The notes under the pieces: generated by a model | What the model was told of the DNA's origin: nothing | The model's input: the letters and a program-made list of their open reading frames with translations, nothing else | Databases searched by the model: none | Source of the DNA: an uncultured Pseudodesulfovibrio sp. | Lineage (GTDB): Bacteria; Desulfobacterota; Desulfovibrionia; Desulfovibrionales; Desulfovibrionaceae | Assembly: GCA_947259235.1 (NCBI GenBank) | Contig: CAMYLL010000021.1 | Coordinates: 1 to 15,524 of the forward strand | Length of the DNA stretch: 15,524 bases | Direction of reading: 5' to 3' | In this document: in pieces, positions 818 to 15,524 of the stretch | Layout of the letters: every line of letters begins with the position of its first letter | Numbering within the stretch: position 1 is the stretch's first letter | Translations under genes and position numbers: made by a program

Positions 818-1393
818 ATGAAGGAAATGATACGAATGATGGTCGTCCTCTCGCTCATCTGCGGGCTGTCCGGGGTCACCCTGGCCGCCCTGAAGCAGGC
901 GACCGCCCCCATAATCGAGGAACAGGTGCTGACCTTTGTCCAGGCCCCGGCCATAGAATCGGTCCTGGCCGGGCATGACAACAACCCCATCAAGGACCGC
1001 AGGACCTTCGAGGTGGACGGGACCACCGTCACCCTCTTCCCGGCCATCCGGGACGGCAGGCTCGCGGGCGTGGCCTTCGAGACATCGGGCAAGGGATACG
1101 GCGGCAGCATCGGGGTCATGGTCGGCTTCGACATGGCCACGGACACCCTCTCGGGCATCGGCATCACCACGCTCAAGGAGACACCTGGCCTCGGCTCCCG
1201 CGTGGCCGACCACGGCTTCACCGCGCAGTTCAGGGGCCACCCCATCGACTCCATGGAGCTGAAGAAGAACGGCGGCGACGTTGAGGCGGTGGCCGGAGCC
1301 ACCATCTCGTCCACGGGCACGGTGACGGCCGTGCGCAAGGCCGTGGCCCTCTTCAACGCGCTCAAACCCCGGCTGGCCGACGCCTGGTCATAG
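818..1393 (+). CDS. rnfG: RnfG, periplasmic FMN-binding subunit of Rnf complex
   Basis: RnfG is anchored by one N-terminal membrane helix (residues ~6-25) and carries a covalently bound FMN in its FMN-binding domain outside the cytoplasmic membrane. The 191-residue length is normal. ETPGLGS at 121-127 is the conserved FMN_bind signature. The flavinylation motif, consensus Dx4(S/T)GA(S/T), is present at 154-162 as D-VEAV-A-G-A-T, with Thr162 the expected FMN attachment site; the first position of the core is Ala rather than Ser/Thr. Attachment requires an ApbE flavin transferase, which is not encoded in this window although apbE often accompanies rnf genes. The start at 818 is preceded by a purine-rich GCGAGG stretch inside the end of rnfD. 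A small gap of 32 bases separates it from rnfE. Confidence 0.95.
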   Translation: MKEMIRMMVVLSLICGLSGVTLAALKQATAPIIEEQVLTFVQAPAIESVLAGHDNNPIKDRRTFEVDGTTVTLFPAIRDGRLAGVAFETSGKGYGGSIGVMVGFDMATDTLSGIGITTLKETPGLGSRVADHGFTAQFRGHPIDSMELKKNGGDVEAVAGATISSTGTVTAVRKAVALFNALKPRLADAWS

Positions 1394-1425: not shown

Positions 1426-2109
1426 ATGATGAACAGATTATGGAAAGAATTTTCCAAGGGATTGTGGACCGACCTGCCGCCGTTCAAGCTGGTGCTGGGC
1501 CTGTGTCCCGTGCTGGCCGTGACCAACACGGCGAGCAACGGGCTGGGCATGGGCATGGCCGTGGTCTTTGTCCTCACCCTGTCCAACCTGCTGATCTCAC
1601 TGGTGCGCAATCTCATCCCGGCCAAGGTGCGCATCGCCTGCTTCATCGCCATCTCCGCCTCGCTGGTGGTGGCCGTGGAGCTGCTCATGCAGGCCTTTGC
1701 CTACCCGCTCTACCAGCAACTGGGCATCTTCGTGCCGCTCATCGTGGTCAACTGCATCATCCTCGGCCGGGCCGAGGCCTTCGCCTCCAAGAACCCGCCC
1801 CTGCTGGCCGTGGCGGACGGCCTGGGCATGGGCCTTGGCTTCACCATGTCGCTGACCTTCCTGGGCAGCCTGCGCGAGGTGCTGGGCGCGGGGCAGCTCT
1901 TCGGCGTCAACGTGACCTGGCAGGGATTCGAACCCTTCGGCTTCATGGTCCAGGCCCCCGGCGCCTTCGTCAGCCTGGGCGTGCTGCTGTCCATAATGAA
2001 CTTTTCCGAAAACATCCGGCGCAGGCGCAAGGGACTGGCCGCCGTCCAGGGCCCCACCCACGACTGCGGCTCCTGCGGCGGCTGCGGGCAGTCCTCAAAC
2101 CCGGCTTAA
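1426..2109 (+). CDS. rnfE: RnfE, integral membrane subunit of Rnf complex, with Cys-rich tail
   Basis: RnfE and RnfA are homologous six-helix membrane proteins of opposite orientation that form the core of the Rnf ion pump and together hold an iron-sulfur centre within the membrane. This protein has 227 residues and about six hydrophobic segments. The two intramembrane cysteines expected of the family are Cys27 (in GLCPVLAVTN) and Cys110 (in VVNCIILGRAEAFA). The NLIP segment near residue 62 and the REVLGAG segment near 150 are also typical. The C-terminus is odd: after the last helix and an Arg/Lys-rich turn (198-202) comes DCGSCGGCG, giving Cys214, Cys217 and Cys220 in a CxxCxxC pattern. The start at 1426 follows a CCGGAG ribosome site; a second ATG follows directly at 1429. 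It sits 15 bases before rnfA, in the standard D-G-E-A-B order. Confidence 0.95.
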   Translation: MMNRLWKEFSKGLWTDLPPFKLVLGLCPVLAVTNTASNGLGMGMAVVFVLTLSNLLISLVRNLIPAKVRIACFIAISASLVVAVELLMQAFAYPLYQQLGIFVPLIVVNCIILGRAEAFASKNPPLLAVADGLGMGLGFTMSLTFLGSLREVLGAGQLFGVNVTWQGFEPFGFMVQAPGAFVSLGVLLSIMNFSENIRRRRKGLAAVQGPTHDCGSCGGCGQSSNPA

Positions 2110-2124
2110 CAAGGGAATACGATC

Positions 2125-2700
2125 ATGCAGGAATACTTCCTTCTCTTCATGGGCGCGATGTTCGTCAACAACATCGTCCTGGCACAGTATCTCGGCAACT
2201 GCCCGTTCATCGGCACGTCCAAGGATACGGGCGTGGCCATCGGCATGGGCGGGGCCGTGGTCTTCGTGGCCGTCATGGCCGCAGGCATCACCTGGCTGGT
2301 GCAGGCATACATCCTGGCCCCCTTCGGCCTCGCCTATCTCCAGACCCTGGCCTTCATCCTGGTCATCGCGGCCCTGGTCCAGTTCGTCGAGATGTTCCTC
2401 AAGAAGATGGTCCCGCCGCTGTACAAGTCGCTGGGCATCTTCCTGCCGCTCATCACCACCAACTGCGCGGTCATGGGTATCGCCCTCATCTGTCAGCGCG
2501 AGGAGTTCGGCCTGCTCAAGACGGTGCTCTTCGCCTTTGCCTCGGGCCTTGGCTTCATGATCGCCCTGGTCCTGTTGGCCGGCATCCGCGAGCGACTGGC
2601 CGTGCGCCGTCTGCCCATAGCCATGCGCGGCACGCCCATCGGCCTGGTCATGGCCGGGCTCATGTCCCTGGCCTTCTTCGCCTTCAAGGGCATGATCTAA
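2125..2700 (+). CDS. rnfA: RnfA, integral membrane subunit of Rnf complex
   Basis: RnfA partners RnfE in the membrane core of the Rnf complex. The protein has 191 residues, typical of the family, and six hydrophobic segments. Hallmark sequences are FVNNIVLAQYLGNCPF at 13-28, with the cluster-binding Cys26, and SLGIFLPLITTNCAVMG at 102-118, with the second conserved Cys114. REEFG and the long GLGFMIALVLLAGIRERL stretch near residues 135-155 also match. The start is supported by the N-terminal consensus of RnfA and by an AAGGGAA ribosome-binding sequence ending about 8 bases upstream. It lies between rnfE (15-base gap) and the rnfB fusion (27-base gap), so it is a mid-operon gene. Nothing in it departs from the family. 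Confidence 0.96.
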   Translation: MQEYFLLFMGAMFVNNIVLAQYLGNCPFIGTSKDTGVAIGMGGAVVFVAVMAAGITWLVQAYILAPFGLAYLQTLAFILVIAALVQFVEMFLKKMVPPLYKSLGIFLPLITTNCAVMGIALICQREEFGLLKTVLFAFASGLGFMIALVLLAGIRERLAVRRLPIAMRGTPIGLVMAGLMSLAFFAFKGMI

Positions 2701-2727: not shown

Positions 2728-4824
2728 ATGATACTGACATCAGGACTGACACTTTTCGGCATAGGACTGGGAGCCGCGGCAATTCTGGGCGTGGCCTCCA
2801 AACTGCTCTACGTCAAGGAAGACCCGCGCATCGGGCTCATCGAGGGCAGCCTGCCCGGAGCCAACTGCGGTGGCTGCGGCTTTCCCGGCTGCTCCGGCGC
2901 GGCGGCGGCCATCGTAGCGGGCAAGGCCCCGGCCTCGGTCTGCATCGTGGCCGACGCCGAGACCGCTGCCGTGGTGGCGGCCGTCATGGGCCAGGAGGTC
3001 ATCGAGCGCGAGCCGGAGCTGGCCCTGCGCGACTGTACCGGCGGCAACCGGGCCTCCGAATCGTTCAACTACGAGGGCGTGCTGGACTGCCGGGCCGCCC
3101 ACCTGCTCTACGGCGGGTCCAAGACCTGCCCCGAGGGCTGCCTGGGCCTTGGCACATGCGCCCGCGCCTGTCCCTTCGAGGCCATCCAGATGGGCCCGGA
3201 CGGACTGCCTGTCATCGACCCGGAACAGTGCAAGGCGTGCGGCAACTGCGTGGACGCCTGCCCGCGCGGCGTCATTGCCGTGTCCGGCATGTCCGCCCGC
3301 CTGCTCCACCTGAACCAGACCACGGACTGCCTCGCCCCCTGCCGTCAGAAGTGCCCGGGGCAAATCAACATACCAAAATATATCGAACAGATAAAAGCTG
3401 GAGACTACGACGGAGCCGTCCTCACAATCAAGGAGAGGAACCCCCTGCTGGTGACTTGTGGCCGGGTCTGCCCGCGCCCCTGCGAGACAGAGTGCCGCCG
3501 CCAGCACGTGGACTCCCCGGTGGGCATCAACATGCTCAAGCGGTTCGTGGCCGACAGGGAGCTCTACTCCGGAAAACGGCTGTCCATCCCCTGCGCCAAG
3601 GACACCGGCAGGAAGGTGGCCGTCATCGGCGGCGGCCCGGCCGGGCTCTCCTGCGCCTATTTCCTGCGCCGTCTGGGCCACAACCCCACCATCTTCGAGG
3701 CCATGCCCTACCTGGGCGGCCAAGTCCGATACGGCATCCCGGAATACAGGCTGCCCAAGGCAGACCTCGACTGGGAGATCCAGGGCATCCTCGACCTCGG
3801 CGTCGAGGCCAGGGTGAACACCAAGTTCGGCGTGGACTTCACTATCGAGTCCCTCAAGGCCGAGGGATACGAGACCGTCTTCATCGGCATCGGCGCGTGG
3901 CAGGCCAGCGGCATGTATGCCGAGGGCGAAGACCTCGACGGCGTCATGGGCGGCATCGAATTCCTCACGGCCCACGCCATGGGCAAGGGCCCGGACGTCG
4001 GCAAACACGTCATCGTCGTGGGCGGCGGCAACACCGCCATCGACGCGGCCCGTACCTGCATCCGGCTGGGCGCGAAGGTGACCCTCATGTACCGCCGCAC
4101 CCGGGCCGAGATGCCCGCCAACATGGAGGAGATCATCGGCGCGGAGGAAGAGGGCGTCGCCTTCCGCTTCCTGGCCGCCCCGGCCCGCGTGGTGGGCGAC
4201 GAATCCGGCAGGGCCACCCACCTCGAATACTACGAGATGGAGCTTGGCGAGCCTGACGAATCCGGCAGACGCAGGCCCATCAAGAAGGAAGGCTCCGAGG
4301 CGCGCATGGCCGCAGACCTGATCATCCCGGCCATCGGCCAGAAGCCGGACCTGACCTGCCTCTACGACGAGAACTCCGGCGAGTGTCCGCTGGAAACCAC
4401 CAAGTGGCAGACCATCGTGGCCGACGAAAACACCTTCGAGACCATCATCCCCGGCGTGTTCACCGCGGGCGACGTCTACACCGGCCCGGACCTGGTCATC
4501 TCGGCCATCGGCGACGGCAGAAAGGCCGCCCGGTCCATGCACTATTACATGACGCGCGGCGAAATCCCCGTACCGGAAACCACGCAGAAGGACATGATTC
4601 CCTACTCCCTCTTCAAGGAGATCGATTCCGTGGAGCGCAAGGAGCGGGCCGTCATGCCCCACCTGTGCCACGACGACGAGCGCAACTGCACCTTCAGCGA
4701 GGTCGAAGGCGCCCTGACAGAGGGCGAGGCGCTGACCGAGGCCGACCGCTGCCTGCGCTGCGGCCTGGTCTGCTACGACAGGGACATGGCCGAGGACAGG
4801 CCAGCCCCGACAACCAACGCATAA
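2728..4824 (+). CDS. rnfB: RnfB fused to a GltD-like FAD/NAD(P)H oxidoreductase
   Basis: This 698-residue protein joins two complete modules. Residues 1-190 are RnfB, the ferredoxin-facing subunit: a membrane helix (~5-25), a four-cysteine Fes cluster (Cys47, 50, 55, 72), then two ferredoxin sets (Cys134/138/144/148 and Cys168/171/174/178). Residues ~195-690 resemble GltD, the small glutamate synthase subunit, and related NfnB-type flavoproteins: an N-terminal cysteine domain (Cys201, 205, 209; Cys244, 248, 252, 256), an FAD Rossmann motif GGGPAG at 301-306, an NAD(P) motif GGGNTA at 432-437, YRRTRAEMPA at 455-464 as in NADPH-using relatives, and an FAD-contacting TAGDVYTGP segment at 579-587. 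The tail adds RCLRCGLVC (Cys675, 678, 682). Ordinary RnfB is only ~180-330 residues. There is no stop or frameshift at the join, so one polypeptide is made. I infer it passes electrons between ferredoxin, the Rnf core and pyridine nucleotide. No glutamate synthase large subunit is nearby. Confidence 0.93.
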   Translation: MILTSGLTLFGIGLGAAAILGVASKLLYVKEDPRIGLIEGSLPGANCGGCGFPGCSGAAAAIVAGKAPASVCIVADAETAAVVAAVMGQEVIEREPELALRDCTGGNRASESFNYEGVLDCRAAHLLYGGSKTCPEGCLGLGTCARACPFEAIQMGPDGLPVIDPEQCKACGNCVDACPRGVIAVSGMSARLLHLNQTTDCLAPCRQKCPGQINIPKYIEQIKAGDYDGAVLTIKERNPLLVTCGRVCPRPCETECRRQHVDSPVGINMLKRFVADRELYSGKRLSIPCAKDTGRKVAVIGGGPAGLSCAYFLRRLGHNPTIFEAMPYLGGQVRYGIPEYRLPKADLDWEIQGILDLGVEARVNTKFGVDFTIESLKAEGYETVFIGIGAWQASGMYAEGEDLDGVMGGIEFLTAHAMGKGPDVGKHVIVVGGGNTAIDAARTCIRLGAKVTLMYRRTRAEMPANMEEIIGAEEEGVAFRFLAAPARVVGDESGRATHLEYYEMELGEPDESGRRRPIKKEGSEARMAADLIIPAIGQKPDLTCLYDENSGECPLETTKWQTIVADENTFETIIPGVFTAGDVYTGPDLVISAIGDGRKAARSMHYYMTRGEIPVPETTQKDMIPYSLFKEIDSVERKERAVMPHLCHDDERNCTFSEVEGALTEGEALTEADRCLRCGLVCYDRDMAEDRPAPTTNA

Positions 4825-4901
4825 CAACGAGAACACCATACCCCATCCTCGGAGTGGTCAAGCCGCCAGTTCACCTCGACAGCAATGACGGCTCATGACT
4901 C

Positions 4902-4959: not shown

Positions 4960-4963
4960 CGGT

Positions 4964-7099
4964 ATGTCAAAAAGCCTCTACATAGCAGCCACGGAAGCAC
5001 GCACGGGCAAATCCGCCATCGTCCTTGGCGTCATGCAGCTCCTGCGCGCCCACGTGCAGCGGGTGGCCATCTTCCGGCCCATCATCAGCGACCACGTTGA
5101 CGGCGGCATTGATCACGACATCGACCTGATGCTCCGCCACTTCAAGCTCGACATGACCTACGACCAGGCCTACGCCTATACTCTCAACGAGGCGCGCCGC
5201 CTGCTCAACGAGGGCCAGCAATCCCTGCTGCTGGAGAACACCCTGAACAAATTCAAGGAGCTGGAGCGCGACTACGACTTCGTGCTCTGCGAAGGCACGG
5301 ACTACATCGGCGGCAACGCGGCCCTGGAGTACGAGATCAACGTCTCCATCGTCTCCAACCTCGGCTGCCCGGTGCTCCTGGTGGTCAACGGCCAGGACAA
5401 GGGCGCGCCGGAGATCACCAGCGCGGCCCAGCGCACCATCGAAACCTTTGAGGAAAAGGGGCTGGAAGTCCTCGGCCTGATCATCAACCGCGCCCGGGCG
5501 GACCTCCCCGCCGCCCTGCTCGCGGACATCACCGCCAGGACACACGCCTCCCACCCCCTGCTGGGCTACGTCATCCCCGACGACAAACGGCTGGGCAATC
5601 CCACCATCCACGACGTCATCAAGTGGCTCGACGCCCGCGTCCTTTACGGCCACGGCAGGCTCGACACCCAGGTGGACAACTTCGTCACCGCGGCCATGCA
5701 CATCAGCAATTTCCTGCGCTACATCAAGGACGGCAGCCTGATCATCACCCCGGGCGACCGCTCGGACATCATCCTGGCCTCCATCACCTCGCGCCAGTCG
5801 TCGTCCTACGGCGACATAGCGGGCATCGTCCTCACGGGCGGGCTCCAGCCCTCGGACACCGTCCACAGGCTCATAGAGGGATGGACCGGCGTGCCCCTGC
5901 CCATCATCAGCGTGGAAGACCATACCTTCCGGGCCACCCAGGTGCTCCAGGGGCTGCACGGAACCATCGACCCCGAGCACCCGGCCAAGATAGCCTCGGC
6001 CATCGGCCTGTTCGAGTCCTGCGTGGACACCGAGGAGCTGCGCAAGCGGCTGGTCACCACCCAGTCGCGCAAGATCACCCCGTTCATGTTCGAGTACAAC
6101 CTCATCGAAAAGGCCAAGGCATCACGCCAGCACATCGTCCTGCCCGAGGGCACGAGCGACCGCGTGCTCCAGGCCGCAGAGATCATCCAGCGGCGCGGCG
6201 TGGTGGAGATAACCCTGCTCGGCGACCCGGAAAAGATCACGGCCCAGGCCTCGGCCCTGGGCGTCACGCTCAACGGGACGAACATCGTCGACCCGGCAGG
6301 CTCGACCCGGTTCGAGGACTACGCCACGCGCTACTTCGAGGCGCGCAAGCACAAGGGCATCCGCATGGAGGACGCCCGCGACAGGATGACCGACCCCACC
6401 TATTTCGGCACGATGATGGTCAAGACCGGCGACGCCGACGGCATGGTCTCCGGCTCGGTGACCACCACGGCCCAGACCATCCGCCCCGCCTTCGAGTTCA
6501 TCAAGACCAAGCCCGGAGCGTCCATCGTCTCCAGCGTCTTCCTGATGTGCATGGGCGACAGGGTGCTCGTGTTCGGCGATTGCGCCGTGAATCCCAACCC
6601 GGACGCGCGCCAGTTGGCGGAGATCGCCCTCAGCTCGGCCGAGACGGCCCGCATCTTCGGCATTGATCCCTATGTGGCCATGCTCTCCTACTCCACGGGC
6701 GAGTCCGGCACGGGCGAGGACGTCCAGAAGGTGGCCGAGGCCACGCGCATCGCCCGGCAGCTGGCCGCCGAGCGCGGCCTTGCCCTGCCCATCGAAGGCC
6801 CGCTCCAGTACGACGCCGCCGTGGACCCGGAGGTCGCAAGGACCAAGATGCCCGACAGCGAGGTGGCGGGCCGGGCCACGGTCTTCATCTTCCCGGACCT
6901 GAACACCGGCAACAACACGTACAAGGCCGTGCAGCGGGCCGTGCCCGGCTCCACAGCCATCGGGCCGGTGCTCCAGGGGCTGAACAAACCGGTCAACGAC
7001 CTGAGCCGGGGCTGCCGCATCCGGGACATCGTCAACACAGTGGCCATCACCGCCATCCAGGCCCAGGCGGAAAAAGCCGCGGAATCCGATCCGCAATAG
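4964..7099 (+). CDS. pta: Phosphate acetyltransferase (long, three-domain form)
   Basis: Pta converts acetyl-CoA and phosphate to acetyl phosphate and CoA in the cytoplasm, the first step of acetate formation. From the start at 4964 it has 711 residues, the usual length of the long, enterobacterial-type enzyme. Residues 1-~215 form a dethiobiotin synthetase/CobQ-like P-loop domain (ATEARTGKSA at 9-18), which in homologues is regulatory rather than catalytic. Residues ~220-335 are the DRTGG domain. Residues ~375-705 form the catalytic PTA/PTB domain, with LPEGTSDR at 393-400, DGMVSGSVTTT at 492-501, YSTGESGTG at 576-584, and FPDLNTGNNTYK at 643-654. The catalytic Ser and Arg motifs look intact. 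It leads a tightly spaced set with ackA (22-base gap) and por, supplying ATP from pyruvate-derived acetyl-CoA. Confidence 0.97.
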   Translation: MSKSLYIAATEARTGKSAIVLGVMQLLRAHVQRVAIFRPIISDHVDGGIDHDIDLMLRHFKLDMTYDQAYAYTLNEARRLLNEGQQSLLLENTLNKFKELERDYDFVLCEGTDYIGGNAALEYEINVSIVSNLGCPVLLVVNGQDKGAPEITSAAQRTIETFEEKGLEVLGLIINRARADLPAALLADITARTHASHPLLGYVIPDDKRLGNPTIHDVIKWLDARVLYGHGRLDTQVDNFVTAAMHISNFLRYIKDGSLIITPGDRSDIILASITSRQSSSYGDIAGIVLTGGLQPSDTVHRLIEGWTGVPLPIISVEDHTFRATQVLQGLHGTIDPEHPAKIASAIGLFESCVDTEELRKRLVTTQSRKITPFMFEYNLIEKAKASRQHIVLPEGTSDRVLQAAEIIQRRGVVEITLLGDPEKITAQASALGVTLNGTNIVDPAGSTRFEDYATRYFEARKHKGIRMEDARDRMTDPTYFGTMMVKTGDADGMVSGSVTTTAQTIRPAFEFIKTKPGASIVSSVFLMCMGDRVLVFGDCAVNPNPDARQLAEIALSSAETARIFGIDPYVAMLSYSTGESGTGEDVQKVAEATRIARQLAAERGLALPIEGPLQYDAAVDPEVARTKMPDSEVAGRATVFIFPDLNTGNNTYKAVQRAVPGSTAIGPVLQGLNKPVNDLSRGCRIRDIVNTVAITAIQAQAEKAAESDPQ

Positions 7100-7121: not shown

Positions 7122-11973
<4,852 letters not shown>

Positions 11974-12172: not shown

Positions 12173-13093
12173 CTAGACGAGCACCAGCCGGAAATCAACC
12201 GAGATGAAATCGTACACCAGATGATAGCTCAGATGCCTGAAGAACCGCGACGAGCCATAGATCACGCCCCACTGGGTACGGTCGAAGTCGAGATTGGCGA
12301 TGACCGCCAGCCGCCCGTCGTCCAGGTTGCGGATATGAGCCGGGAAGGCGATCTCGCTGGAAACCCCGCGCAGGGAGAGCCTGCCCTGCATCATGGCGTT
12401 GGGCCGCGTGGCCGGTCCCTCCTCGGTCAGCCGCAGGGCCGTGGTGATGAAGGTGGCCTCGGGAAACATGGCCGTGAAGAAAAAATCGTCCGAGTGCAGG
12501 TGCTTTTCAAGGACAGGGTGCAGCTCGTCGCCTTCGAGATCCACGTCCCTGATGGTGGTCATGTCCATGGTGAACGACGCGGCCGGGTCCGTGGTGGCGT
12601 CCAGCTCGCCGTCCGAGAACATGAGGGTTCCGTGGTGGTGGCCGTTGTTGTTTCTCCCGGTCCAGCGGATGACGGACTCCGACGGCACGAGCCGGTAGAC
12701 CTTGCGCTCGAGAGCCAGGATGGGATGCGGCGGCTCAAGGCGCTTCGGGTCCGTCCCCTCCAGGGGGCGGCCGGACTCCATCCAGGCCTCCAGGCCGCCC
12801 GGAAACACCGCGACGTCCGTATAGCCGATCCGGGTCAGCTTCTCGGCCGCAGCCATGCAGTCCTGGGACTCGGTACCGGCTCCGTAGAGCACGATGGGCG
12901 TGCCCTTGCCCGGAACCAGGGTGGTCAGGATGTCGCAAAAAACCATCTCATAAACACAGGCATTGACCGCGCCGGGGATGTGGCGGGCCTCGAAATGTTC
13001 GGGTGGGAGGGTGTCGACGAGCACGCCGTCTCCCTTGTCGATGAACTCGACGACTTCCCCAATATCTAACCGTTCGACGAACTGGGTATCCAT
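12173..13093 (-). CDS. Rhodanese-like domain fused to YceI domain, degenerate rhodanese active site
   Basis: The 306-residue product has no signal peptide or membrane helix, so it should be cytoplasmic. Residues ~5-110 have a rhodanese fold: VDTLPPEHFEARHIPGAVN at 26-44 and VFPGGLEAW at 96-104. The loop after the VLY strand, where rhodaneses carry catalytic Cys (C-x4-R), reads GAGTESQDC; Gly71 sits at the Cys position and there is no matching Arg. Cys79 is displaced into the following helix, so sulfur transfer is unlikely in the usual way. Residues ~130-306 match the YceI lipocalin-like family, which binds long lipids such as polyprenyl chains: YRLVPSESVIRW at 133-144, GHHHG at 151-155, HLHSDDFF at 198-205, PEATF at 211-215 and GRLSLRGVS at 237-245. 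Most YceI proteins are secreted, so the cytoplasmic rhodanese fusion is unusual. AAGGAAG at 13099-13105, 5 bases from the ATG, supports the start. Partner and substrate are unknown. Confidence 0.85.
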   Translation of the reverse strand: MDTQFVERLDIGEVVEFIDKGDGVLVDTLPPEHFEARHIPGAVNACVYEMVFCDILTTLVPGKGTPIVLYGAGTESQDCMAAAEKLTRIGYTDVAVFPGGLEAWMESGRPLEGTDPKRLEPPHPILALERKVYRLVPSESVIRWTGRNNNGHHHGTLMFSDGELDATTDPAASFTMDMTTIRDVDLEGDELHPVLEKHLHSDDFFFTAMFPEATFITTALRLTEEGPATRPNAMMQGRLSLRGVSSEIAFPAHIRNLDDGRLAVIANLDFDRTQWGVIYGSSRFFRHLSYHLVYDFISVDFRLVLV

Positions 13094-13218: not shown

Positions 13219-15393
13219 TCAGAATTTCTCCAGGTCGTCGTCCATGTTCAGGTCTATGCCCGAGCCCTGCGGCTTCTTGATGACGCCGTCGTCCTCCAGC
13301 GCCTTCTTGAGGAAGGGGACGTACTTGCGGTCCGTACCATTGATGTGGTTGACCAGCCAGCCACGGAGGAACTCCATGACCTCGGTCCCAAGAGCCAGGG
13401 TCCCGGCCTGGAACTTCCGGTCTATGTCCTTGACCGTCTCGATGAGTTCGACATGCTGGCGCTTATGGTTTTCGGTCTCGGGATAGCCGTACTTGTCGAA
13501 GAGCTTCTCCTCGTTGCCGAAGTGGGTGACGGTGTAGTCCTTGAGCTTCTCGATGACCCGGCCGACGGCCTTGCCGCCTTCGCCCCTGGCCATGAACTCG
13601 TTGAGTTCGTTGAGGTAGTCCACCAGGACCTTGTGCTGGTCGTCGATCAGGTCGATGCCGATCTTGACGTCGTCGTTCCAGGTTATGAGCGGCTTGACCT
13701 TGCGCCCGGACGCGGCGGCGATGGGCTGTCTCGCGGGCTTGGCGGCGGGCATGGCGCGCTGCGGGGCGGGCCGGGAAGCCGGGGGTGACACGACGCGGGC
13801 CTGGGTGCGCCGGGGCTGTTCAGCCCGGGCCTTGCGTTCCTTGCCGAGATCGAAGAACTCCATGCTCTGCTGGAGTTGGGACGCCTGCTCGGTGAACTCC
13901 TGGGCGGTGGCGGCCAGCTCCTCCGAGGCGGCCGCATTCTGCTGGATGACCGTATCAAGCTCCTGAATGGCCTTGTTGATCTCCTGGGCTCCGGCGTTCT
14001 GCTCTATGCTCGCCACCGATATTTCCTGGACAAGGTCCGCTGTCTCGCGGATGTCGGGAACCATCTTGGCGAGCATTGACCCGGCCTCGTCCGCCTTGGT
14101 CAGGGTCGACGAGGACAGCTCGCCGATCTCCGCCGCGGCCGCGCCGCTGCGCTCCGCCAGCTTGCGCACCTCGCTGGCCACCACGGCAAACCCCTTGCCC
14201 GCCTCTCCGGCCCGCGCCGCCTCGATGGCCGCGTTAAGCGCCAGGAGATTGGTCTGGCGGGCTATCTCGCCGATGATGGAAATCTTCTCCGCGATATGCT
14301 TGATCGAATCCACGGCCTCCATGACCGTGTCGCCGCCCTTTTGCGCATCAAGGGCGGTCTGGGAGGCCATGCGCTCGGTCTGTTTGGCGTTTTCCGTATT
14401 GCGGCTGATCTGGGCTATCATTTCCTCCATGGCCGAGGAGACTTCCTCCACGGAGGCGGCCTGGCGGCTGGCTCCGTCGGCCACGGTCTGGGCCGAGGTG
14501 GTCACCTCGGCACTGCCAGAGGACACACGCTCCGAACCGTCCTGGGCCGAGCCCACGATGTCGTGCAGGCGGTGGATCATGGCCGAGAGGGCCGCAGTCA
14601 GGCGACCCGGTTCGTCGTCGAAGTCGGTATTGATCTCCCGGGTCAGGTCGCCGCCAGCCACAAGGTCGGCCAGGTCAACGGCCTCCTTGATAGGCCGGAT
14701 GATGGACCGGGCGATGAGCAGGCACAGGGGCAGGACGACGAGCAGGAAAACGCCGAAGGCAACGCCGCCCACGCCATACACATAGGTGGTGACCAGTCTG
14801 TCGATGTCCGAGGTGATGGCCACCCGCTCCTCGTCCACGTTGTCAAGATAGACGCCCGTGCCGATCCACATCTGCGTGCCGGGGATCATCTCGGCATAGG
14901 AAAGCTTCGGCTGGTCGCCCTTCTCGGGCTTGGGCCAGATATAGGTAACGAAACCGCCGCCGGAGTGAGCCTTGGTGTTCAATTCGCTGACAAGGGCAAT
15001 CCCGTTCTTGTCCTTAAGCCCGGAAAGGTCCTTGCCCTGAAGCTTGGTATTTGTGGGCAGGGCCACAACCGTGGTCTTCTCATACACGAAGAAATATCCG
15101 GACTTGTCATCCTCGAAGCGGATGCCATCCACCATGGCGCGGATCATCTCCACCTTGGCATCGTGGTCCGGCAGGTCGGCGATGGCGGCTCCGACGGCCA
15201 CGGCCATGGAGTGGGTGGCTACCTGGAGCTTGCGGTTCTCGCCTTCAAGCATGGCCCCGGCAGACCGCTCGACGCCCATCTCCTTCACTTTGGATACGCC
15301 GTTGAGCGACGTCAAAGCGAAGCCCAAAGTGAAAAGCACGATGGTACAGATCAGGATTATCATTCGAACATTGATGGTCGTTCTTCTCAGCAT
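13219..15393 (-). CDS. Methyl-accepting chemotaxis protein with Cache sensor and C-terminal hemerythrin domain
   Basis: From the ATG at 15393 it has 724 residues. Membrane helix 1 (~11-29) and helix 2 (~204-228) bracket an extracytoplasmic sensor of single-Cache type ([10 protein letters not shown] at 96-105, [12 protein letters not shown] at 120-131). A HAMP segment follows (~228-282), then the chemoreceptor signalling domain, with the conserved hairpin tip around [20 protein letters not shown] at 377-396. A Pro/Ala/Arg-rich linker (~520-565) leads to a bacteriohemerythrin domain (~570-700) with the complete di-iron ligand set: His587, His624, Glu628, His643, His647, His683 and Asp688. Such domains bind O2 at a di-iron site; D. 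vulgaris DcrH has the same architecture and is regarded as an oxygen/redox sensor. It should signal to CheA/CheW, which are not in the window. The adjoining genes encode oxygen-sensitive Por and Rnf. There is no CheR-tethering pentapeptide with an aromatic pair. Confidence 0.95.
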
Positions 15394-15398
15394 TGGAA

Positions 15399-15403
15399 CC
15401 TCC
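15399..15403 (-). promoter_or_regulatory. Ribosome-binding site that fixes the chemoreceptor start
   Basis: GGAGG on the - strand lies 5 bases before the ATG at 15393. Three in-frame ATGs upstream (15420, 15510 and 15513) have no such site and would add up to 40 residues with no family match ahead of the first membrane helix. The start at 15393 gives [10 protein letters not shown] followed directly by the helix, the usual chemoreceptor layout. Confidence 0.8.
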
Positions 15404-15524
15404 GGGTTCACTTCGGTCATTCGAATATTTGAATTTTCATAGCATTGAAGCGATGATTTTTGAAGAGATCCGGTGGAATTTATAATGCCTCCAGCCGTGA
15501 GAGACGACATCACGAATAACGTGT
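15404..15524 (-). promoter_or_regulatory. AT-rich leader/promoter region of the chemoreceptor gene
   Basis: This stretch is markedly more AT-rich than the rest of the window, which suits a promoter region. It holds a near-perfect 14-base palindrome at 15420-15433 (TTCGAATATTTGAA on the + strand, one mismatched pair), an operator-like element or short RNA hairpin. TATAAA on the - strand (15479-15484) resembles a -10 box but lacks a good -35 partner. TATAAT on the + strand (15481-15486), with TTTTGA 17 bases before it, could instead serve a gene to the right of the window. No sigma-54 or FliA-type consensus is convincing. Confidence 0.35.

Follow-up and report, generated by a model that had tools for sequence, protein, structure and literature searches.

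The 15,524-nucleotide stretch of DNA analysed here (the window), from an uncultured Pseudodesulfovibrio sp. (contig CAMYLL010000021.1), carries rnf genes among which rnfB is fused to a GltD-type module with motifs for flavin adenine dinucleotide (FAD) and nicotinamide adenine dinucleotide (phosphate), NAD(P). This system is a member of a known, little-studied Rnf type, the Tol2-type Rnf (Rnf2) of Desulfobacula toluolica, Desulfococcus multivorans and Desulfobacterium autotrophicum, for which an RnfB of about 700 amino acids with NAD-binding sites, an RnfC without the NADH domain and a cytochrome in the cluster have been described (PMC5109826, citing Proteomics 2016, 16:973). We lean, with some reserve, towards the view that the Tol2-type Rnf has been rewired between cytoplasmic NADPH/ferredoxin and a periplasmic cytochrome c. 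This view is based on the fusion, the motif states, the cytochrome gene next to rnfC and the phylogeny, all read from sequence; from these we infer the reaction, its direction and its ion coupling. Neither the fusion nor the loss in RnfC is new: both were published in 2016, when the proteins were also detected in D. multivorans and the electron acceptor was still to be identified (PMC5109826). What is added here is a change in RnfD, the tie to the cytochrome gene, the StnC-like nature of the module, and a history with a single clade of fused RnfB and a seemingly chimeric branch.

The RnfB-GltD fusion and its distribution

The fused gene occupies positions 2728..4824 (+) and was recognised from its open reading frame, Pfam, alignments to structural chains and a family search. 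The first-pass annotation of the window had described one uninterrupted frame of 698 residues, which is borne out by 698 codons with an ATG start and no internal stop, and by Pfam matches to FeS/PF04060 (residues 42-73), a Fer4-type domain (135-183), Fer4_20 (201-279) and Pyr_redox_2 (296-597). The RnfB part (residues 1-185; 2728..3282, +), outlined by Pfam, the 9eri_B alignment (9-185) and a predicted model, consists of an N-terminal helix (residues 2-26 in the model), the Fes domain and two [4Fe-4S] motifs. Although this part had been called a complete RnfB, the description holds for the Fes domain and the two clusters only, since, where ordinary RnfBs such as L107 continue with a second polyferredoxin region, this protein has the GltD module instead. 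Within the module, the Fer4_20 domain (PF14691) lies at 3328..3564 (+), the FAD/NAD(P)H domain (Pyr_redox_2) at 3613..4518 (+), and a C-terminal CxxCxxxC (residues 675-682), probably cluster ligands, at 4750..4773 (+), which the alignments place opposite RCLxCG in GltD domains of StnC/NfnC type. The FAD, NAD(P) and C-terminal cysteine motifs noted in the first pass stand up well: in an alignment of 68 sequences, G301, G303 and G306, G432-G434 with T436 and A437, and R456/R457 together with Cys675/678/682 are all invariant.

The possibility that two genes had been joined by a sequencing or assembly artefact was considered, since the window comes from a fragmented draft of 474 contigs. However, at least 69 of the family's 288 genomes, that of the window counted and many of them single-contig, have full-length colinear copies, and the same fusion is found in 20 further family codes; the artefact was therefore rejected, its chance being negligible, and the fusion is real. 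The family survey that had been proposed places the fusion in at least 13 of the 44 genus codes (among the matches listed), and it extends across the phylum, where at least 42 of 395 sampled genomes in 20 family codes carry it, the window genome not counted. Among the matches listed, the large genus code g18, which includes Desulfovibrio records, has no full-length fusion, identities within the family form two classes (about 59-86% and 46-49%), and named carriers include Pseudodesulfovibrio, Maridesulfovibrio, Desulfocurvibacter, Salidesulfovibrio brasiliensis and Desulfocarbo indianensis. The length is well kept, as 118 of the at least 119 relatives listed beside the query have 690-716 amino acids (P0083 has 519). 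Genome G253 carries four fused rnf operons (L045-L048), and G169 has only a 514-amino-acid piece of the fusion ended by the contig end, which is outside the 69.

Some fusion genes have no rnf genes in the flanks examined (L133, L135, L136, L138, L148, L150 and also L145). The one in L145 (8382-12383, -) has as its neighbour a gene for a NuoF/HydB-like protein with 2Fe-2S, Complex1_51K and 4Fe-4S domains, an arrangement that recalls the StnB-StnC pairing. In addition, L146 (193-9697) and L147 (601-10315) contain relatives of about 600 amino acids without the membrane helix and the Fes domain. The L146 relative comes after POR/KOR-type, FAD-binding and succinyl-CoA ligase-like genes (Pfam), and the L147 neighbours are similar in size; these relatives possibly serve 2-oxoglutarate-ferredoxin-NADP coupling.

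Changes in RnfC and RnfD

Canonical RnfC has a loop, GMGGA(G/T)FPTHVK (GxGGAxFPTxxK), visible in 7zc6_C and 9eri_C, which, by analogy with complex I, holds flavin mononucleotide (FMN) and NADH. The resemblance of RnfC to NuoF has been noted (PMC9588780). The front half of the operon, missing from the window, is found on another contig of this draft genome, C42 (G000:C42), whose end carries an open reading frame for a cytochrome with ten CxxCH motifs directly before rnfC, then rnfC itself and the first part of rnfD. Whether this RnfC retains its NADH/FMN site had been raised in the first pass; read by eye, the loop is absent. In an alignment of 28 RnfC sequences, a 13-residue gap falls at the loop in the Desulfovibrionaceae-type rows shown, fused or unfused, while three canonical copies have the loop. 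Over all loci the loop state was scored by a motif test, not from the 28 rows, and all 32 fused operons with an assigned RnfC lack the loop. It is likewise absent from 9 of 9 RnfC in fused operons outside the family and from 11/11 fused named loci (L285 in that set being identical in place to L219). The RnfC of L208, unassigned in the motif test and so outside the 32, also lacks it on later reading. Complex1_51K matches were weak and below the cut-off in the RnfC of all eight relatives scanned.

Conversely, RnfB is fused in none of the 23 loop-intact operons. It should be noted that 20 of them (L181-L200) owe their inclusion to a high TIGR01945 score. Their loop is therefore intact by selection, which leaves only their unfused RnfB and their RnfD Thr as informative. 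The idea that the loop is lost only together with the fusion was rejected, because 21 unfused operons lack it as well, namely 12 of the window family, all with an adjoining cytochrome, L201-L204, and L206, L207, L210, L212 and L218. The last five form a separate Rnf group with ordinary RnfB and the flavin-bearing Thr of RnfD (see below) retained, apparently a second, independent decay of RnfC.

In solved Rnf complexes RnfD carries covalent FMN on a threonine, Thr153 in C. tetanomorphum (PMC9588780) and Thr156 in A. woodii (PMC11889175). This residue is the T of DAV(S/T)xATPL, and counting along 7zc6_D gives 153. In the window, rnfD is truncated at its 5' end by the contig start (2..814, +; PF03116, E 2e-75; 9eri_D and 7zc6_D alignments), and its Tyr104 (reading frame from 8; codon 317..319, +) takes the place of the Thr according to phmmer and the RnfD alignments, the codon having been checked. 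Over 85 RnfD rows, the Thr is retained in 23/23 loop-intact operons and in none of the 41 operons with a cytochrome of at least four CxxCH motifs. No mention of this loss was found in the open-access literature as far as its accessible text goes, subscription papers being outside the scope, which is not proof of absence.

The remaining parts are kept. The rnfG gene (818..1393, +; FMN_bind PF04205, 8ahx_G alignment) has the flavinylation motif AGATISS, and all 34 fused RnfG rows have a flavin motif (23 SGAT, 10 AGAT and 1 SGAS); four unfused rows fail the pattern through variants (L105 TGST, L182 TAAT, L206 TAAT, L218 SSAT). The Cys motifs of rnfE (1426..2109, +) and rnfA (2125..2700, +), both PF02508 by domain match and alignment, are retained, as in the 23 aligned rows except the canonical L104 and L105, where one RnfE Cys is missing. 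Compared with canonical Rnf, therefore, the gene set, the covalent-FMN Thr motif of RnfG and the Cys of RnfA/RnfE are matched, whereas the RnfC loop and the RnfD Thr are not. The return limb looks dismantled. On the simplest reading, electrons have ceased to go back by way of RnfD and RnfC, and RnfG, on the periplasmic side, hands them to the cytochrome, whose hydrophobic N-terminus suggests a periplasmic location.

The GltD module

The predicted model of the module is closest in fold to NfnC/StnC; the comparison spans mainly residues 200-645 and has no RnfB chain among the rows listed, so that it bears on the GltD module and not on the RnfB part. Lys271 (3538..3540, +) falls, in pairwise alignments, at the place of both StnC Lys170 and NfnL Glu126, the ligand of the FAD-proximal cluster (PMC10482914, PMC9503767), and NfnL Arg201 and StnC Arg239 both map onto Arg341; Lys271 and Arg341 are invariant in the 68-row alignment. 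The Lys170 position is thus shared with StnC of the Sporomusa Stn complex and NfnC of NfnABC (8oh5, 9bov, 9n5u). In contrast, bifurcating NfnB/NfnL has the Glu126 ligand, which is not matched here, together with the Arg201 near the FAD N5, which is matched (R341). StnC differs in bearing a NuoG domain where the fusion has RnfB (PMC10482914), and no NuoG domain stands behind the GltD domain among the Pfam matches listed, the protein stopping at residue 698.

In NfnB the NADP phosphate is bound by two Arg (PMC6405883), to which, by motif, Arg456-Arg457 (YRR; 4093..4098, +) would correspond in the alignments; the module is therefore taken to be of NADPH type. The first-pass annotation had suggested a second pyridine-nucleotide site. 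A site on RnfB, NADPH-type by R456/R457, is upheld, but that it is a second one is not supported: because the RnfC loop is absent in the window genome and in all 32 fused operons, the GltD module is probably the only pyridine-nucleotide site of the complex. Over 52 fused GltD domains, position 271 is Lys in 39, His in 6, Glu in 4 and Gln in 3, and the 30 domains that retain both R456 and R457 all have Lys271. Most rows of the 46-49% class have GDTNTA- or GDSNTA-like motifs, and the class lacks YRR and has Gln, His or Glu at 271; a further class retains Lys271 and has lost YRR. Given this variation in the Arg pair and residue 271, nucleotide use probably differs between paralogues, the window module being of the intact NADPH-like type. 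Members of the 46-49% class (L044, L047, L048, L052, L054-L057) have degenerate NAD(P) motifs and an adjoining cytochrome of five haems, not ten.

A possible electron route and its alternatives

In the rewired Rnf that we favour, a hydride from NADPH would pass to the FAD of the module, and electrons would move through the [4Fe-4S] clusters of the module to the ferredoxin domain of RnfB, where ferredoxin may enter too. From RnfB they would cross the [2Fe-2S] of RnfA/E to the periplasmic FMN of RnfG and reach the decahaem cytochrome whose gene adjoins rnfC; the usual way back, over RnfD FMN, riboflavin and RnfC FMN to NAD+, would be disabled. Because the limb RnfG-RnfD-RnfC-NAD+ looks dismantled, the likely reaction runs from NADPH/ferredoxin to a periplasmic cytochrome c or in reverse; in the latter case an ion gradient might drive the reduction of ferredoxin or NADP+ from periplasmic donors. 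There are precedents for such a route. In Na+-NQR, NqrF stands for RnfB as the NADH input and NqrA loses cofactors (PMC12174285, PMC11889175), which resembles the NAD(P)H-FAD input at the RnfB position and the RnfC stripped of flavin. Unlike the fusion, which is GltD-type with [4Fe-4S], NqrF is FNR-type with [2Fe-2S]; furthermore, RnfC keeps its iron-sulfur motifs, and NqrB keeps a covalent FMN (PMC12174285). The Rnf of Methanosarcina acetivorans likewise has a cytochrome c partner and is unreactive with NAD or NADP (PMC4023990); a GltD module on its RnfB is unmentioned in the available part of that account, and its RnfC scores above the rnfC family cut-off.

Several observations weigh against this route. 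RnfC is altered, not gone: its two [4Fe-4S] motifs are retained, although a pure dead end would have no use for them, and some loop-less RnfC of fused operons, for example in G619, G362, G514 and G479, still score above the rnfC family cut-off. In six of the 32 fused operons with RnfC no cytochrome was detected in the flanking stretches examined (the Thr of RnfD is kept in two and lost in four), so there the acceptor must, on our interpretation, be a different one. The Thr is absent from two unfused operons with no cytochrome detected as well as from these four, FMN could be bound non-covalently on RnfD, and, as the operons are related by descent, the motif counts are not independent events. 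Mutants of the pre-rnfC cytochrome of D. alaskensis were unaffected in fitness on H2, formate and ethanol (PMC4841214).

The retained RnfC clusters and the six operons without a detected cytochrome would suit a relocated output instead, in which RnfB takes in electrons from ferredoxin, these travel the whole U-turn as far as the clusters of RnfC, and the module, intact and NADPH-type, acts as terminal NADP+ reductase in place of the lost FMN of RnfC. The complex would then be an ion-pumping ferredoxin:NADP+ oxidoreductase, supplied with ferredoxin by the adjoining por gene. We consider this unlikely. The U-turn appears broken at RnfD, where the Thr is lost in the window and in every cytochrome-bearing operon, the short link between C178, the last cluster Cys of RnfB, and C201, the first Cys of the module, would favour direct transfer, and in unfused Rnf of the Desulfovibrio type RnfC is broken in the same way, although the RnfB there has no GltD module. 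It is also improbable that the module is simply a tethered ferredoxin:NADP+ reductase, exchanging electrons between RnfB-docked ferredoxin and NADP(H) with the pump bypassed and the fusion merely channelling electrons. This would agree with the rnf-less fusion genes listed above, L145 included, and with the oxidation of ferredoxin with NADP+ by isolated NfnL (PMC9503767), yet many genomes keep the fusion in complete rnf operons with altered RnfC and RnfD.

Flavin-based bifurcation, raised in the first pass, would send one electron of NADPH from the module FAD to ferredoxin and the other through Rnf. The module shares its fold class with NfnB, R341 equals NfnL R201, and Glu stands at position 271 in four of the 52 fused domains, which belong to other operons. 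In the window, however, the Glu126 equivalent is Lys271; Glu126 is important for coupling in bifurcating NfnL (PMC9503767), and StnC, which has a Lys at that place along with the same Arg, contains an FAD reported as non-bifurcating (PMC10482914). No partner gene of NfnA type, which would provide the second branch, was found among the open reading frames and domain scans of the window. Bifurcation is thus disfavoured, with only a slight chance left to it, and the module looks like a plain NADPH-FAD-iron-sulfur conduit of StnC type.

Evolutionary history

A tree of concatenated RnfA, RnfE, RnfD and RnfG (78 rows, 896 columns) has the 12 unfused Desulfovibrio-type operons as one clade (100/100), which nests in a clade of 30 together with the fused operons of the family (100/99) and in one of 32 that takes in a further two (100/100). 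A less well supported clade of 48 (82/76) contains all 34 fused rows, which need four label changes on this tree. In the tree of RnfB N-terminal parts (86 rows), by contrast, the 43 fused RnfB are all in one clade (99/93; 98% of bootstraps), and the 12 Desulfovibrio-type RnfB join the canonical L103-L105 (98/95). Taken together with the GltD tree described below, these trees make it most likely that the fusion arose once, and that the Desulfovibrio-type lineage swapped its fused rnfB for an ordinary one, so that its Rnf looks chimeric; repeated exchange of rnfB among rnf operons is an alternative. That the Desulfovibrio-type RnfB is a truncated fusion was rejected, as it ends in an ordinary polyferredoxin and, by its N-terminal part, belongs with canonical RnfB. 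The GltD tree places the fusions together, with the L146 and L147 relatives nested among them; some deep branches are unstarred, two long outgroup branches meet, and L056_other710 is a duplicate of L056, no outgroup. Note that L205 (RnfB ended by the contig end) and L213 (no RnfB) carry the label 'unfused' in the core trees, that L197 and L205 were excluded from the RnfB tree, and that L060 is ended by the contig end. The claims do not extend to the sequences of Desulfovibrio vulgaris and D. alaskensis.

A wider picture can be entertained, though we stop short of favouring it: a 'half-Rnf' across the phylum, with the return limb dismantled, a single gain of the NADPH module and direct exchange between NADPH/ferredoxin and periplasmic multihaem cytochromes via RnfG, of which the Desulfovibrio-type would be a later chimera without a pyridine-nucleotide site. 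On this picture the textbook ferredoxin:NAD+ schemes would not be applicable to these sulfate reducers.

Genomic context

The window reads rnfD' (truncated), rnfG, rnfE, rnfA, rnfB-gltD, pta, ackA and pyruvate:ferredoxin oxidoreductase, and with rnfC and the start of rnfD on C42 the set rnfC D G E A B is accounted for. No overlap joins C42 to the window contig; their adjacency is deduced from the order cytochrome-rnfC-D-G-E-A-B in relatives such as L042 and L045, and the C42 RnfC is 65% identical to that of a relative. The neighbours are pta (4961..7099, +; NF004167; a further ATG lies upstream at 4895), ackA (7122..8327, +; TIGR00016) and por/nifJ (8374..11973, +; TIGR02176), whose product is a source of reduced ferredoxin. 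Beyond them lie genes for a protein with a rhodanese-like N-terminus and a YceI-like C-terminus (12173-13093, -; weak NCBIfam matches) and a methyl-accepting chemotaxis protein with a C-terminal bacteriohemerythrin domain (13219-15513, -).

Relation to published systems and implications

Compared by description, the window system is like the Tol2-type Rnf in its RnfB of about 700 residues with an NAD(P) module, its RnfC without the NADH domain and the cytochrome in the cluster. It differs in the cytochrome, which is of 15 kDa in Tol2 and has ten CxxCH motifs here, and the RnfD change is unmentioned in the accessible account (PMC5109826). Many Desulfovibrionaceae are said to have lost rnfB and to possess instead a FAD-dependent oxidoreductase, along with a CbcC-like decahaem cytochrome (PMC11434368). 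These oxidoreductase genes are very probably the same as the fusion: among the matches listed, proteins of that name contain RnfB as their N-terminal part. The published view is corrected accordingly, in that rnfB is not lost but forms the N-terminal part of that gene. The cytochrome, drawn on the cytoplasmic side there, has a hydrophobic N-terminus here, which suggests the periplasm.

The RnfD change, the tie to the cytochrome and the StnC-like module together give a concrete, testable wiring. If it is true, the energy schemes of many sulfate reducers would change, and it could account for the unsuccessful tests of ferredoxin-to-NAD+ coupling in D. alaskensis vesicles (PMC4841214). These complexes would also be a natural variant for deciding which limb of Rnf pumps ions.

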